From an uncultured bacterium (lineage in GTDB: Bacteria > Actinomycetota > Actinomycetes > S36-B12 > CAIKAW01): a stretch of 64,000 bases of DNA. This document shows positions 12,747 to 45,022 of this stretch, one piece after another. The notes under the pieces are model-generated. The model searched no databases. It had not been told where the DNA came from and was given only the letters and a program-made list of their open reading frames with translations. Within the stretch, counting starts at the first letter, position 1; the number at the start of each line of letters is the position of its first letter. The position numbers were made by a program, and so were the translations under genes. The DNA is taken from assembly GCA_903825575.1 (NCBI GenBank), contig CAIKAW010000100.1, positions 1 through 64,000 on the forward strand, given 5' to 3'.

Positions 12747-13475
12747 ATGCGTAAGCACCGATTTCTGATGACGTTGCTTTTCCTTGGATCACTCTTGTTC
12801 ACACCGGCTGCCCTTGCGGCCGCTCCTCCCACCCCGTGGTCTGACGTGCAGCGGATTCTCAACGGTGCTCGCGTCGGTCATCCGGGAAGCGGGCCCAGCG
12901 GACGAGTTGCCGTAGCACACGCATATGTCTCGCGCGTTGCACTTGGTCTGGTTGCTGGGCGGCATCCGTACGGGGTCAATGAAATCGCCATCGTCACCCA
13001 AGATCAGCAGGACACAGTCTGGTGCGTACCAGCCGCAACTCGGGCGGTACTTTCCGCATTCATAACCCGGCTACCGACACAACGCTACCTGTCGCTACTC
13101 GAAGGTACCGACTGGCTCGGCACGTACCTAGATCGAGTGCCAGTCGTCCTGAACCACTATCAGGCGCGGATCAGTTACGAGTACCGATTTGTGTTCAGTG
13201 TCACCGAGTATCGCGAACGGGTGCGCACGGATGTTGATATGTATCGGGCTCCTTTGATCTTCAGCGTCGACCCAAGATTGTTGCCTTGGTATAGAAGTCT
13301 CGGCGTCGGCGCGGGTAATCACGCTGTCGTTGGCTATGGCTATGCGTTTATGCCTCGCTTTGCTGGGATCAGCGTTTGGGATCCGTCCGGGCTACCCCAA
13401 GCCGGACGGCACATAGTGGGTGTTGGCGCGCTGTGGCAGGCAGGCGCCCCGATGCACCATCCAATGGTCGCGTGA
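12747..13475 (+). CDS. Secreted C39-like (papain-fold) cysteine peptidase
   Basis: Signal peptide (MTLLFLGSLLFTPAALAA), WCVPA Cys motif, GNHAVVGYGY His motif, SVWDPSG Asp motif. Confidence 0.65.
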   Translation: MRKHRFLMTLLFLGSLLFTPAALAAAPPTPWSDVQRILNGARVGHPGSGPSGRVAVAHAYVSRVALGLVAGRHPYGVNEIAIVTQDQQDTVWCVPAATRAVLSAFITRLPTQRYLSLLEGTDWLGTYLDRVPVVLNHYQARISYEYRFVFSVTEYRERVRTDVDMYRAPLIFSVDPRLLPWYRSLGVGAGNHAVVGYGYAFMPRFAGISVWDPSGLPQAGRHIVGVGALWQAGAPMHHPMVA

Positions 13476-13480
13476 TCGCG

Positions 13481-14602
13481 ATGCGAAATCTAAGAGCAAT
13501 CTCTTGGCTGGCTTTGGTACCTCTCGTGGTTGTCGGCTGTGCGGCAGTTAAAGCCCAAGCGCCTGACTCGTCTAGGCAACTAGCGCCGATTGCGCTAAGC
13601 CCCATTCAGTTGAAGATTCCCAATGCTGAGGTCGTCGCTGCGTGGGCTCTGCCCAACGACATGTTCTTAAGCAAATACGGCGCAGTTCGCCTCGGTGACC
13701 AGGTCGCGTTCGGCACGGATGTCGATGCCGCGGGTTCGCAGCCGGGGGCAGCGGCCCGGGGCAACTTCGGCGTGATTTCGCTTCAGACCGGCCGCTTACA
13801 GCTCCTGCCGGCATTACTCCTTGGCGCCTGGACCAATCTGATTACCGGAACCGACGGGTACTGGATCCGCACAGAAACCCGACCCAGCACCCAGGCGTGT
13901 GGCCGAACCGATGGCGCCTGTACTGAGTGGTTGATTGCTGCCACGCCGGCAACGGGCGGACCAACATTTGTCCTCGACGGTGGAGTCACCTCGGCGGAAG
14001 CCGTGAACATTCCTCGGGTCGTGACAAGCTCGCTCGGTGTTGCTTGGCAGCGACCGGTCGCAGGTGGCCAGAGTGAAGTCGTCTGGTGGCGGGCCGGATT
14101 CGATCGGCCGCTGGTGGTCGGCGGGGCATCCGGTCAAGGACAACTAGCTGGAACAGTTAGTGGCTGGCTGCTTGCAACCATGTGGGGTCGCGGACCGACA
14201 TTGCTGGACGTCGGGAAAGGCGTTTCGGTCGCATCCCCGGCCCTGAATGCACTAGTGGCGGGCCCGAGTTCTCTCGCCTATGCCGTACCAGCCGAAACTG
14301 ATGCCCTGCCCGGGACTTCTGACATTGATGTGGGCCAAGTCGTCGGCGGGAAACTGGTCGGAAAACTAATCGCGCAGGTTTCCGATGTTTACGGCTTGGG
14401 TTGGGCAGACTCTCTGAACTTGCTGGTCGCCACACCTAACGGCACGTCGCTGGTTCCAATCAACGGGGCTCCGATCATCCCCCTGCCGGCGGTAGGGGAG
14501 TTCACTTCACACGCGAACGGAGCCGGTGCCGTGATTGCAGTTGCTGGTGAGCGCGGCGAAATTGGGATCGCAGTAGTTAAACCAGCAGGCGCCGCTAGGT
14601 GA
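13481..14602 (+). CDS. Predicted lipoprotein of unknown function, possibly beta-propeller-like
   Basis: Lipobox VVVGC after signal peptide; starts 5 nt after the C39-like gene. Confidence 0.65.
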   Translation: MRNLRAISWLALVPLVVVGCAAVKAQAPDSSRQLAPIALSPIQLKIPNAEVVAAWALPNDMFLSKYGAVRLGDQVAFGTDVDAAGSQPGAAARGNFGVISLQTGRLQLLPALLLGAWTNLITGTDGYWIRTETRPSTQACGRTDGACTEWLIAATPATGGPTFVLDGGVTSAEAVNIPRVVTSSLGVAWQRPVAGGQSEVVWWRAGFDRPLVVGGASGQGQLAGTVSGWLLATMWGRGPTLLDVGKGVSVASPALNALVAGPSSLAYAVPAETDALPGTSDIDVGQVVGGKLVGKLIAQVSDVYGLGWADSLNLLVATPNGTSLVPINGAPIIPLPAVGEFTSHANGAGAVIAVAGERGEIGIAVVKPAGAAR

Positions 14603-15518
14603 CGACGGAGATCATCTCAACTGCGGCACGCAATGCATCGGCGGCAATTTGGACGCCAAAGCCGCCGCCTTGTCTGATCTCCAGATCTAAAAGTGGTGCT
14701 AAATCTAGGCGGTCCAACGCCATTGCGTGCGCCGGTTCCGGCGTGACCTGGCTAGCGGCCCACCACAGCGTTGACCGATACGAGATGCGTTGTCCGATGA
14801 GCGCTGCGGCCGCGGGTAGCAGATCGTCGAGAATGACCGGGGTTTGCCGGATCGCCGACTGGAGCAGAAACCCGGCCATACCGGCGGCGACATTCGACTC
14901 CGTAGCAGCAAGCAGGCCGATCGGGTCGGAAATGTGATGGCGCCCGGCGCGCATCAGGTCGCGAACGATAGCGGCCTTGCGCATCCAAAGGGCGTCGTCT
15001 ATTCCTAGGCCTCGTCCGGTGACGGTCGCAACGTCGCTACCGCAAAGCAGGCCCACGATTGTCGCTGCCGAGGTGGTGGAGCCCGGGCCAGTAGCTGCAA
15101 GCAGAAACAAGCCGGTACCAGCATCGACTTCAGTGTCCGCCAACGCTCTACCTGCATTGAAGGCGACCATGATCGCTTCACGATCGACAGCCGGATCGGT
15201 TAGCGGCGCTATGTCAACGACATGAGTCGAATAGCGATTCAGGTGCGGATTGACCTGTACTGACATTGATCCAAGGTCAGGTTCGGCCGCCAGACTGCTG
15301 ACCGCAGCGCCACTGCGGTGGGTTCCGGAAAACACGATTAATCGAGTGCGCTCCGGGAATGTTGGCGGGCAGTTCGACTGCGCTCCGGCCAACCATGCAC
15401 ACAAATCCGCCATCCGGCCCAAGGATCGAGTCTGGGCGTGGGTGGCATTAACGCTGTCGGCGTCAAGCAACTGGATGCGATCGGAGATGTCGGCCCCGTC
15501 TAGTTCGGGTGAACTCAC
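14595..15518 (-). CDS. CobT-like (nicotinate-nucleotide:DMB phosphoribosyltransferase) family protein, apparently catalytic-residue deficient
   Basis: Family resemblance along length (SLGRMADL, GPGSTTSAATIVGLLCGSD, GMAGFLLQSAIRQTPVILDDLLPAAAALI, ALDRLDLAPLLDLEIRQGGGFG); GTG start overlaps preceding stop. Confidence 0.8.
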   Translation of the reverse strand: MSSPELDGADISDRIQLLDADSVNATHAQTRSLGRMADLCAWLAGAQSNCPPTFPERTRLIVFSGTHRSGAAVSSLAAEPDLGSMSVQVNPHLNRYSTHVVDIAPLTDPAVDREAIMVAFNAGRALADTEVDAGTGLFLLAATGPGSTTSAATIVGLLCGSDVATVTGRGLGIDDALWMRKAAIVRDLMRAGRHHISDPIGLLAATESNVAAGMAGFLLQSAIRQTPVILDDLLPAAAALIGQRISYRSTLWWAASQVTPEPAHAMALDRLDLAPLLDLEIRQGGGFGVQIAADALRAAVEMISVVT

Positions 15519-16315
15519 GGCGTCGCTACCGGTAAAGGTTGGACGCCGAACTTCGCGCGGCGCGCGCCTCGTCGGAGTGCAATCATTAGTGGGCGACCTG
15601 CGACAAGTACAAGCGTCACCGTCACTGCCGCACGAACCAGATCAAATCCAAGCGACGTGGCCAGATTGAACGTCAGCCAATGCGCAAGATTTACAGACAC
15701 CGCGCCGCCCGGAACGTAGGCCAACTTAGACGCGGTTCCGCCGGCCCACGGCCAGAACCAAAGGTTCAGCAACCAGCCATAGGCCAGTGACGACACGACC
15801 GCATAACCAGCCAGCAGCCAGGTTTCAGCACGACCCCGCCAGGCCGGAAGCAGTCCGGCCCCAATGCCGAGCCAGCCGGCCCCAAGCATTTGGAAGGGAA
15901 GCCAAGGGCCGACGCCGGCAGTGAGTAAGGCGGACACGAAGAGGCCGAGACTGCCCAACGCGAAGCCAAATCCCGGTCCTAGGACGCGCGCACCCAGAAT
16001 GACTATGAACCACATCGGTTCTAGGCCGGCGTGACCAACTCCGAGTGGTCGTAAGGCGGCATCAACGGCTATGAGCACGCCTAGAGTCGCCACGGCTTTG
16101 GCATCGAGCCCACCGTCTGCGACGTCGGCAAGCACAACCACGACGACGAGTGGAAGCAGAAGAGCGAATAGCCAGGTGGTAGCGCCCGGATGCCCTGCGA
16201 TGCTGCTGCCTGGAGCTGCAAGGAACGGCCAGCCAAACGCAGCGATGCCGATCGCCGAAGCTACGACGAGCACCAACAAAGTGCGTGGTCGCAGCGGAAC
16301 CGCACGATCTCTCAT
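15515..16315 (-). CDS. ECF transporter S component (probable cobalamin/cobamide specificity, CbrT-like)
   Basis: ~6 TM small membrane protein; 4-nt overlaps with ABC gene and CobT-like gene; operon has cobalamin riboswitch. Confidence 0.75.
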   Translation of the reverse strand: MRDRAVPLRPRTLLVLVVASAIGIAAFGWPFLAAPGSSIAGHPGATTWLFALLLPLVVVVVLADVADGGLDAKAVATLGVLIAVDAALRPLGVGHAGLEPMWFIVILGARVLGPGFGFALGSLGLFVSALLTAGVGPWLPFQMLGAGWLGIGAGLLPAWRGRAETWLLAGYAVVSSLAYGWLLNLWFWPWAGGTASKLAYVPGGAVSVNLAHWLTFNLATSLGFDLVRAAVTVTLVLVAGRPLMIALRRGARRAKFGVQPLPVATP

Positions 16316-17961
16316 CCAGCATCTCCGACGCTGCGGGCAACTTGTGAAACCGTCAGCCACTTTTCTGGTGCTAGCACCTTTGCGATCTGCGGTGCAAACA
16401 ACGGTGAGGAAACGATGACGTCTTCGGCTGGGCCATCAGCTACAACTTCGCCCTCGGCAAGGACAACTACGCGGGTGGCAACTTGCGCGACTAGCTCAAC
16501 ATCGTGGGTGGCCAACACAATCGCGTGGCCGGTCCCAGCCAAGCGAGTGAGGATCTGGACAAGGCGTTCCTTGGCTGCATAGTCAAGGCCACGAGTCGGT
16601 TCGTCTAGCAGCAGTAGCGGTGGTTCCCCAACGAGTACGACAGCCAATGCCAACGCAAGTCGCTGACCCTCAGATAGGTCTCGCGGATGAGACTGCGGAT
16701 CGATGTCGGCGGCCATCTCCGCCAAGAGCGCCGCTGTTGCTCCGGTGGCTAGGCCAGCATCGACATCCGCGGCCTCACATTCGGCCGCCACTGTGTTGGC
16801 GTAGAGCAAGTCAGTCGGGTCCTGCGGCACGAGCCCAATGCGATGAACCAAGCGGCGGCCAGCCAAGGTAGTGGGGTCGGCACCGAGCACGCGCACCTGA
16901 CCGGTCCGAGCCGGAACCAAACCGACCAGCGCCGCGAGCAGGGTGGATTTACCAGCACCATTTCGGCCCATCAGCGCCACAACTTCACCTCGCGCGGCCG
17001 CTAGGTCGACCCCGGCAAGGGCAACTATGCGGCCGTAGGTCACTACAACTCCGGTCAGCGTGGCCACCGTCTCTGGTGGTCCAACGGATTCGGTGACGGA
17101 AGATTCGGGGGTGGCGTGTGGAACCAACCGCAACGGTGGTCGGCGGCCGGCAAGGTCCGAGCGCATTTCGGTGGCCGCCCGGCGGGCATCCCTAATGGTC
17201 AGCGGCAGCGGGGTCCATCCGGCTAGGCGTCCGAGTTCGACGATCGGTGGCGCAACTGGGGCGTGCCGCATGATTTCAGCTGGGTTGCCAGTTACCAGCG
17301 CCCTTCCGTCGCCAGGGACGATGACGATTCGGTCCGCATACTGAACGACCCGCTCGAGTCGGTGTTCGGCGAGCAATACGGTCAGGCCGAGGTCGTGGAC
17401 TAGTCGATGCAAAACACTGAGCACTTCTTCGGCTGCACCAGGGTCGAGTGCGCTTGTTGGTTCATCTAGCACCAAGACGCGCGGATGCATTGTGAGCACT
17501 GAGCCGATCGCTACCCGCTGGCGTTCACCGCCAGAAAGTGTGCGTAGTGGTCGACGCCGCAAGTCGGCTAGTCCCAACAGATCAAGGGTTTCTTCCACTC
17601 GCCGTCGCATCACGTCGGGCTTGAGGCCTAGGCATTCCATTCCGTACGCCAACTCGTCCTCGACGTTGTCAGTGACAAATCCGCTCATCGGATCCTGCGG
17701 AACCACTCCGACGACATCAGCGAGTTCTCGTGGCGGATGCGTCTTAGTGTCTCGACCGGCAATGCTGACTTTGCCCAAGAGCGTGCCACCGGTGAAATGC
17801 GGGACCAAGCCATTGACGGCCTGAAGTAACGTTGATTTCCCACTGCCGGTTCGGCCGATCACCAGGCACAACTCACCTTCCGGAACGTGCAAGTCAACGT
17901 TCTGTAGTACCGGCTCTAGTGCGTCGGCGTATGTGATCGTCACGTTCTCGAATCTGATCAT
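16312..17961 (-). CDS. ECF transporter duplicated ATPase (EcfA-EcfA' fusion)
   Basis: Two ABC domains: Walker A GRTGSGKST and GRNGAGKST, signatures LSGGERQR and LSEGQRLA; start at MIRFENVTITYAD. Confidence 0.92.
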   Translation of the reverse strand: MIRFENVTITYADALEPVLQNVDLHVPEGELCLVIGRTGSGKSTLLQAVNGLVPHFTGGTLLGKVSIAGRDTKTHPPRELADVVGVVPQDPMSGFVTDNVEDELAYGMECLGLKPDVMRRRVEETLDLLGLADLRRRPLRTLSGGERQRVAIGSVLTMHPRVLVLDEPTSALDPGAAEEVLSVLHRLVHDLGLTVLLAEHRLERVVQYADRIVIVPGDGRALVTGNPAEIMRHAPVAPPIVELGRLAGWTPLPLTIRDARRAATEMRSDLAGRRPPLRLVPHATPESSVTESVGPPETVATLTGVVVTYGRIVALAGVDLAAARGEVVALMGRNGAGKSTLLAALVGLVPARTGQVRVLGADPTTLAGRRLVHRIGLVPQDPTDLLYANTVAAECEAADVDAGLATGATAALLAEMAADIDPQSHPRDLSEGQRLALALAVVLVGEPPLLLLDEPTRGLDYAAKERLVQILTRLAGTGHAIVLATHDVELVAQVATRVVVLAEGEVVADGPAEDVIVSSPLFAPQIAKVLAPEKWLTVSQVARSVGDAG

Positions 17962-19109
17962 GCGGCCACCGGTTCGACAGTTGCTGGCACTCGGACGTCC
18001 ACCAGGTCGCGTGCTGCGCGACGGATTTGGTCGGGAGGTGCCGGAGCGAAGAAGGCGGGCGCGATAGCAATCAATAGTCCAACCACTGGAGACAGCGCCA
18101 GAGCCGGCAAGGTTAACGGCGTGACCGACAGGTTGAGCACGTCCGTTGCTGTGAAGAGGAGAACGATCGGTCCGACAAAGCCGCTGGCGACGGTAAGCCA
18201 CTCCGGCGTCGTCCAAGGATCAGGTCGGTACCGACTACGCAGCCCCCGTCTGGCACCCAAGCGCAGACCTAGGCCGGCGGTGGCCGTTCCGACTAGCGCC
18301 AGTGGCAGCGCCAGCCCTGGTGGGGTTCCGGCATCGAGTCCGGCTCCAACGCCTACTCCGATGCCGACCAGTCCAAGCAGAATCAATCCAGATGTGACAC
18401 GGCGCGAGCGCACCGACACTTCTGCGGTCCGGCCGAAGCCGCGCGAATCCATCGCGGCGGCTAACAGGATTGAGCGGTCAAGGGCGCCTGTCAGGACCGG
18501 AATCGCCGCACCGGCGAAGCCCCGGACACCTGATGTGGAACGACCGCGCAACCGCCTTGCAGTTCGAATTCTGGATACGTCCGTGACAAGTTGCGGCGCG
18601 AAGGTCAACGCCACCACCACTGCGACGCCCGCTTCGTAGAGCGCAGTGGGGAGTGCCTTGAGCAAGCGACTCGGCGACGCTAAGGAATTGGCGGCCCCCA
18701 AACACGCAAACATCGTTGCCAGTCGCAGGCCGTCGGCGGCGGCGAGCAGCACTTGCTCTGCAGTCACTGGCCCACCCAAGCGAATCCCTTGCGCCCAACT
18801 GGGCAGTCCGACTTCGGGCAACGTAAAGAGCAAGTGGGTGCCGATTGGCAGACCTATAAGCACGGCAAATCCCAGACGTAAGGCAATGACGAAGGCGCCG
18901 ACTCGCAAGAACGCACCAAAGGATGCTCCCCAAGCGGTGGCTGGACGGCGCGCCGCTACCACGTATCCGGAGGTGCCAATGATCAGCAGCAGAAGGAAGG
19001 GGTTGGTGGTTCGGCTAGCGGCCGCAGCCAGCCCCAGGGCCCACAACCACCACGCACCAGGATGCAGCCAGCGCTGGCGCAGCGCCCATTTTGCGCCCGG
19101 ACGATTCAC
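17958..19109 (-). CDS. ECF transporter transmembrane component EcfT
   Basis: LHPGAWWLWALGLAAAASRTTNP, DSRGFGR motif; GTG start at 19109 with GGAAGGGA upstream; the longer ORF to 19322 would overlap the riboswitch. Confidence 0.85.
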   Translation of the reverse strand: MNRPGAKWALRQRWLHPGAWWLWALGLAAAASRTTNPFLLLLIIGTSGYVVAARRPATAWGASFGAFLRVGAFVIALRLGFAVLIGLPIGTHLLFTLPEVGLPSWAQGIRLGGPVTAEQVLLAAADGLRLATMFACLGAANSLASPSRLLKALPTALYEAGVAVVVALTFAPQLVTDVSRIRTARRLRGRSTSGVRGFAGAAIPVLTGALDRSILLAAAMDSRGFGRTAEVSVRSRRVTSGLILLGLVGIGVGVGAGLDAGTPPGLALPLALVGTATAGLGLRLGARRGLRSRYRPDPWTTPEWLTVASGFVGPIVLLFTATDVLNLSVTPLTLPALALSPVVGLLIAIAPAFFAPAPPDQIRRAARDLVDVRVPATVEPVAA

Positions 19110-19190: not shown

Positions 19191-19226
19191 ATCCGCTGAC
19201 CTCGGCGGTAGGTGGAGCCTGTTCTG

Positions 19227-19337
19227 ATTCGCCAGGTGCTCCGGCTTGTCGCGATGCGACTCACGGTTGCGGGACAGCGCCGGGATTTCACCGGCTTCCC
19301 CTGGAATTCGAACCGACACCACTAGACCATGGCGAAT
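19227..19337 (-). ncRNA. Cobalamin riboswitch
   Basis: Minus strand: GGGAAGCCGGTGAAATCCCGGCGCTGTCCCGCAACCGTGAG and B12-box-like AAGCCGGAGCACCTGGC; closing helix ATTCGCCA/TGGCGAAT (8 bp). Confidence 0.93.
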
Positions 19338-44790: not shown

Positions 44791-44869
44791 TCAGGGGCAG
44801 ATCGGCTCCGATCCCCAAGTTCGCCGGGGGAGCCGTGGTAACCTCGCCTGCGGTGCCCAGACCGGGCAC

Positions 44870-45001
44870 CACCGCCGAGTTCGACACCCAGGAATGGGTG
44901 CCGGAGCCGGGGAACCATTCCCCAGGGGCGAATCCAGGACGCTTGCGTCTTGGTAGGGCGAACTCCTCCGCCCGAGCCCGTCAGCTCACCCGGTAGGCGG
45001 T
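44870..45001 (+). ncRNA. c-di-AMP riboswitch (ydaO-yuaA leader)
   Basis: ACCGCCGAGTTCGACACCCAGGAATGGGTGCCGGAGCCGGGGAACC...CCCCAGGGGCGAATCC...AGCCCGTCAGCTCACCCGGTAGGCGG; CCGCC/GGCGG closing helix. Confidence 0.93.
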
Positions 45002-45022
45002 ATGCGGAGGGAGATCGAGCCG

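Follow-up and report, generated by a model that had tools for sequence, protein, structure and literature searches.

Why would an organism that appears to import and use B12 keep, at the end of what looks like the importer's operon, a CobT-family gene whose product lacks the residues with which CobT works? The question is raised by the gene at 14595-15518 of the window, that is, of the whole stretch of 64,000 nucleotides analysed here. The genome it comes from (2.2 Mb, 95% complete) encodes, by genome-wide search, neither a second CobT nor any CobU or CobS; it does encode a cobalamin adenosyltransferase and ten matches to B12-binding domains, one of them in a protein of the size of MetH. As the former are absent and the latter are present, the B12 used is presumably imported. 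The locus is composed as follows.

19226 to 19314, minus strand: AdoCbl-II cobalamin riboswitch (RF01689; 47.2 bits, gathering threshold 36.5, E 2.8e-8)
17958 to 19109, minus strand: EcfT, the transmembrane component for coupling (PF02361 CbiQ, 26.0 bits); a GTG at 19109 is the probable start; 4-nt overlap with EcfA-A'
16312 to 17961, minus strand: EcfA-A', two ABC ATPase domains (PF00005 twice) in one protein, ATG at 17961, 4-nt overlap with EcfS
15515 to 16315, minus strand: EcfS, ECF substrate-specific component, ATG at 16315 (PF12822, 30.3 bits; cut-off 30.7)
15515 to 15518, minus strand: GTGA in which the CobT-like gene starts and EcfS stops; translational coupling inferred
14595 to 15518, minus strand: predicted CobT-family pseudoenzyme (PF02277), 307 aa, GTG start, without E174, E317, KPPG and most of the base-binding loop
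7157 to 12645: conserved sucB-lpd-pepA / gcvT flank, by which the corresponding slot is recognized in relatives

The genes for EcfT, EcfA-A', EcfS and the CobT-like protein are consecutive and each junction is a 4-nt overlap, so that a complete ECF set lies in one operon with the riboswitch immediately upstream of EcfT. A preliminary description of this DNA had placed the gene in a cobalamin-riboswitch transporter operon, translationally coupled to EcfS by a GTGA; both the setting and the overlap are found as described, the coupling itself being inferred from the latter, and the same junction, with overlaps of 1–4 nt, recurs in 10 further genomes whose CobT-like gene is intact. The EcfS assignment, 0.4 bits under the PF12822 cut-off, is backed by synteny and alignment; a profile search with EcfS against solved structures gave no match by sequence. 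That cobalamin is the putative substrate is supported indirectly by the AdoCbl-II riboswitch and by the cobalamin riboswitches found ahead of the operon in 5 of the 8 related loci that were scanned. The known cobalamin transporter ECF-CbrT likewise consists of EcfT, EcfA, EcfA' and a B12-related S-component (PMC5997447), whereas the EcfS profile from the window has no solved homolog by sequence.

Some neighboring features may be mentioned here. Two plus-strand ORFs of unknown family, with starts resembling signal sequences, lie between gcvT and the CobT-like gene (12747-14602); the second overlaps the 3′ end of the latter by 8 nt, tail to tail. In three related loci (L046:3576-5656, L135:12495-14236 and L035:13313-15050), SCO2321-like and SCO2322-family proteins are encoded between the cobalamin riboswitch and EcfT, a place where the window has neither; the SCO2321-like proteins score below the family cut-off, with weak Pfam alpha/alpha-toroid matches in two of the three. 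Both kinds look exported and may be extracellular B12 binders. Elsewhere in the window, a c-di-AMP riboswitch (RF00379, 78.5 bits) is found at 44863-45014 on the plus strand.

The CobT-like character of the gene, claimed before from the sequence, is clear: its ORF is free of internal stops and its product matches PF02277 with 172.9 bits (E 1.4e-50; cut-off 22.6). Against the NCBIfam CobT model TIGR03160 it reaches 154.4 bits, which is far below the equivalog cut-off of 319.3. It is the sole PF02277 gene of the assembly, and a tandem pair in the style of ArsAB is absent; ArsA is nevertheless the top PDB sequence match (98.6 bits), with CobT also among the best. An AlphaFold model, suggested earlier as a check and built with 66 related sequences as input, has the CobT fold (pLDDT 91, pTM 0.91); with it, every significant Foldseek match is a CobT-family structure (6b5f, TM 0.83; 1l4b, TM 0.84). 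The low-confidence part of the model, around residues 70–90, is the remnant of the base-binding loop. The possibility that the gene is a pseudogene was rejected on the intact ORF and on a codon-position G+C (0.66/0.52/0.65) similar to that of the neighboring genes, although function is not thereby proven.

For the active site, the window protein was compared with what we take to be the Salmonella CobT sequence, whose length of 356 residues and whose E174 and E317 agree with the PDB entries. In CobT, E317 acts as the general base, and the ribose 2′-OH is contacted by E174 (PMC9561151). The alignment of RLGEGSGA with RQGGGFGV puts Gly at position 317, as the preliminary description had read it. 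Its reading of position 174 was half right: alignment of GVGELGMANTT with LLAATGPGSTT does give Ala, but the working CobTs of this clade read GDMGIGNTT, with Asp rather than Glu, so that the local change is from Asp to Ala. Similarly, the reported erosion of KPPGSLGRL holds in that KPPG is missing, but two deletions had been overlooked: one of about 10 residues spans Salmonella positions 85–94 and takes out Q88 of the base-binding loop (positions 80–90), of which S80 is replaced as well; the other, of about 20 residues, lies near positions 122–141. Residues of the nucleotide site are still present (G176, T180, T181, G202, K213 and E293).

With neither key residue left, a large part of the base pocket missing and neither CobU nor CobS anywhere in the genome, loss of the standard CobT activity is, as far as sequence comparison can tell, close to certain, barring an unusual moved base such as that of archaeal MjCobT, in which Asp52 serves in place of E317 (PMC9561151). 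No acidic residue is seen in AGAQSNCPP, the stretch that would correspond to the Asp52 site as judged from the alignment to Salmonella CobT. The window protein resembles Salmonella CobT (PDB 1d0s, 1jh8) in fold (TM 0.83), family, a partly kept nucleotide loop and K213, but differs in the catalytic and base-binding elements, in its transporter operon and in a genome devoid of CobU and CobS. MjCobT (PDB 6ptf, 6pu6) also has no Glu at position 317; however, it is a weaker structural match (TM 0.56–0.59), and its active site is complete, with the base moved.

The CobTs of relatives show variation of their own. Canonical CobTs of the order (e.g., L071:9174-10250) have Tyr, Met and Met at Salmonella positions 80, 88 and 175, the same trio as in a mutant (S80Y/Q88M/L175M) whose structure was solved with p-cresol (PDB 4kqj/4kqk), and this may bear on the choice of lower ligand. 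One genome with a full cobUTS set encodes, outside the ECF cluster, a further CobT in which position 174 is Ser and position 317 is Asp (L048:9746-10999; G030).

Within the order the gene occupies a conserved slot, EcfT-EcfAA-EcfS-X-gcvT-pepA-lpd-sucB, in which X is cobU-cobT-cobS, or these three with an additional short, eroded CobT, or a lone CobT-family gene. A survey of such neighborhoods for CobT without the glutamates, proposed at the outset, was carried out on 77 genomes whose CobT-family genes were read, 39 with CobS and 38 without. A complete CobT is encoded in 37 of the 39 genomes with CobS vs. 3 of the 38 without; 35 of the latter have an eroded CobT only (Fisher p 5e-16, shared ancestry being ignored). 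The two exceptions among the former are G092, whose canonical-looking match to CobT lies on a contig outside those read, and G098, with CobS fragments only; nine genomes have an eroded copy despite the presence of CobS. In four genomes (G016, G034, G051, G121) nothing matched the window protein, yet a profile search found a PF02277-like ORF in the slot, confirmed with Pfam for the first three.

Several clusters have lost cobU and cobS and kept the middle gene, cobT, with an intact active site (genera g27, G068; g28, G075 and G078; g58, G182, where the absence of CobU refers to the cluster), and their congeners keep cobS. Erosion is partial in G071/G072 (GSIGVGATT, MPHEEGIG), and the fully eroded CobTs of relatives are mostly shortened (207–340 aa). 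Outside the order, EcfS-adjacent CobTs of genomes without CobS are eroded at position 317 in G140, G150, G160 and G161, but not in G182 and G187. The association with EcfS has limits: in genus g34 the CobT-like gene lies by gcvT with the EcfS operon on a separate contig, EcfS operons without a CobT-like gene occur in G017, G011 and G122/G123, and the copy of G065 is split or broken. CobT-like genes by gcvT without an adjacent EcfS are found at L161:7794-8417 (G119), L140:4815-5501 and L141:3618-4289; no EcfS was found in G119, and in G084 and G088 it is on another contig. In genus g37, a GGDEF-EAL gene takes the place between EcfS and gcvT (L173:6606-8726 and L174:4537-6570; G122/G123).

With copies from the order only, a single origin of the eroded forms was not rejected (AU p 0.107); with copies from outside the order added, it was rejected for the eroded forms as a whole (AU p 0.0086), whereas a single clade uniting the eroded copies of the order with the window copy was again not rejected (p 0.376). 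The window copy stands at the edge of the eroded clade in the first tree and pairs with the eroded CobT of G140 (97/93) in the wider one. The latter implies eight changes, a figure which is only indicative because deep forks are weak and long branches present. In 13 pairs of eroded copies dN/dS was 0.09–0.39 (a simple Nei-Gojobori count, with dS saturated in some); it was higher than that of EcfS in every pair with values for both genes, and mostly higher than those of gcvT and pepA, so that the eroded genes are constrained, but less than their neighbors. A pattern scan of the genome contigs yielded no close relative of the window protein, and hence no pair for a dN/dS of the window copy itself.

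The sequences suggest that in many actinobacteria no longer building B12 the CobT-like protein now serves uptake and not synthesis. That it is a CobT pseudoenzyme retained for a noncatalytic role coupled to B12 import has, in our estimate, an even chance of being correct; such a role would account for where the gene lies, for the riboswitch and for the middle gene having survived. The main rival, which may be true of some lineages and not of others though rather unlikely to be the general explanation, is slow decay: CobT, jobless after the loss of CobU and CobS, would be a transient relic in a well-expressed operon and on its way out. The preliminary description had named a decaying, lineage-specific gene as what would speak against a retained function, and part of this picture is indeed seen: the eroded copies evolve rapidly, with dN/dS above EcfS, and are shortened to 207–250 aa in many relatives; a graded series leads from intact (G068, G075, G078) through eroded (G071/G072) to short forms; the gene is missing from some EcfS genomes and broken in G065. 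Most copies, however, are intact and constrained, dN/dS being well below 1 in 13 of 13 pairs. Decay is further opposed by long-lasting retention across genera, by residues conserved in the eroded set (Trp at window positions 42/43, W178, R186 and D187), by the keeping of the middle gene when both neighbors are lost, and by eroded copies that lie beside full cobUTS clusters.

Improbable, but still to be weighed, is an enzyme with altered chemistry, in which another acidic residue or substrate would permit phosphoribosyl transfer or hydrolysis on a nucleotide of nicotinate or alpha-ribazole. A moved general base is possible in the CobT family, since in MjCobT Asp52 replaces E317 (PMC9561151), and the six nucleotide-site residues kept by the window copy would suit such an activity; yet most of the base-binding loop and KPPG are gone, no CobS is there to use a product, and most eroded relatives have lost K213 and the GxxNTT loop, so that no active site is common to the group. 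Most improbable of all is that the protein is a noncatalytic subunit pairing with an active CobT, as ArsB does with ArsA, tandem CobT homologs which act together (PMC6461909). Active and eroded CobT do share an operon in G056, G093, G095, G100 and G101, and ArsA heads the PDB sequence matches, but the window genome and 35 others have no active CobT to pair with. Sporomusa ArsA/ArsB (PDB 4hdk) do illustrate that a CobT-family protein need not act as a standard CobT; they are, however, a tandem pair acting jointly on phenols, whereas the window encodes a single shortened copy.

Returning to a noncatalytic role in import, the ancestor of the window gene would have been the CobT of an ECF-cobU-cobT-cobS cluster from which cobU and cobS have since been lost. 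Its descendant would no longer produce alpha-ribazole phosphate, but would be a cytosolic, noncatalytic accessory of the B12-type ECF transporter, its synthesis in step with that of EcfS through the gene overlap, under the AdoCbl riboswitch. Most likely it would bind the incoming cobamide or its nucleotide tail, as the retained nucleotide-site residues of the window copy suggest, or contact the transporter. The role cannot be obligatory, because genus g34 separates the gene from the transporter and some EcfS operons are without it. Of the functions first proposed, that of a pseudoenzyme is well supported as far as the loss of catalysis goes, and that of a repurposed uptake helper agrees with the operon and its riboswitch, with the repeated retention after cobU and cobS are lost and with purifying selection among relatives; remodeling of cobamides is improbable, there being no CobS that could attach a lower ligand. 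A broader idea, put forward tentatively and with more doubt than confidence, is that actinobacterial CobT, active ones included, has a second, noncatalytic job with the ECF B12 importer; this would be why cobT is repeatedly kept by EcfS after cobU and cobS are lost, its active site then eroding independently in several lineages.

An inactive, orphan or CobT-like protein of this kind was not found described in the open literature searched, which is weak evidence as subscription papers were mostly outside it; we also know of no CobT-family partner of ECF-CbrT. The presence of CobT serves as an annotation marker of cobamide synthesis or salvage, and here most CobT-family genes of genomes without CobS do not encode CobT enzymes. 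The contrasts within genera render a noncatalytic role testable. Should it be real, a widespread group of actinobacteria would import B12 with the help of an accessory protein so far unrecognized, and pathway loss would have brought to light a second function of a textbook biosynthetic enzyme.
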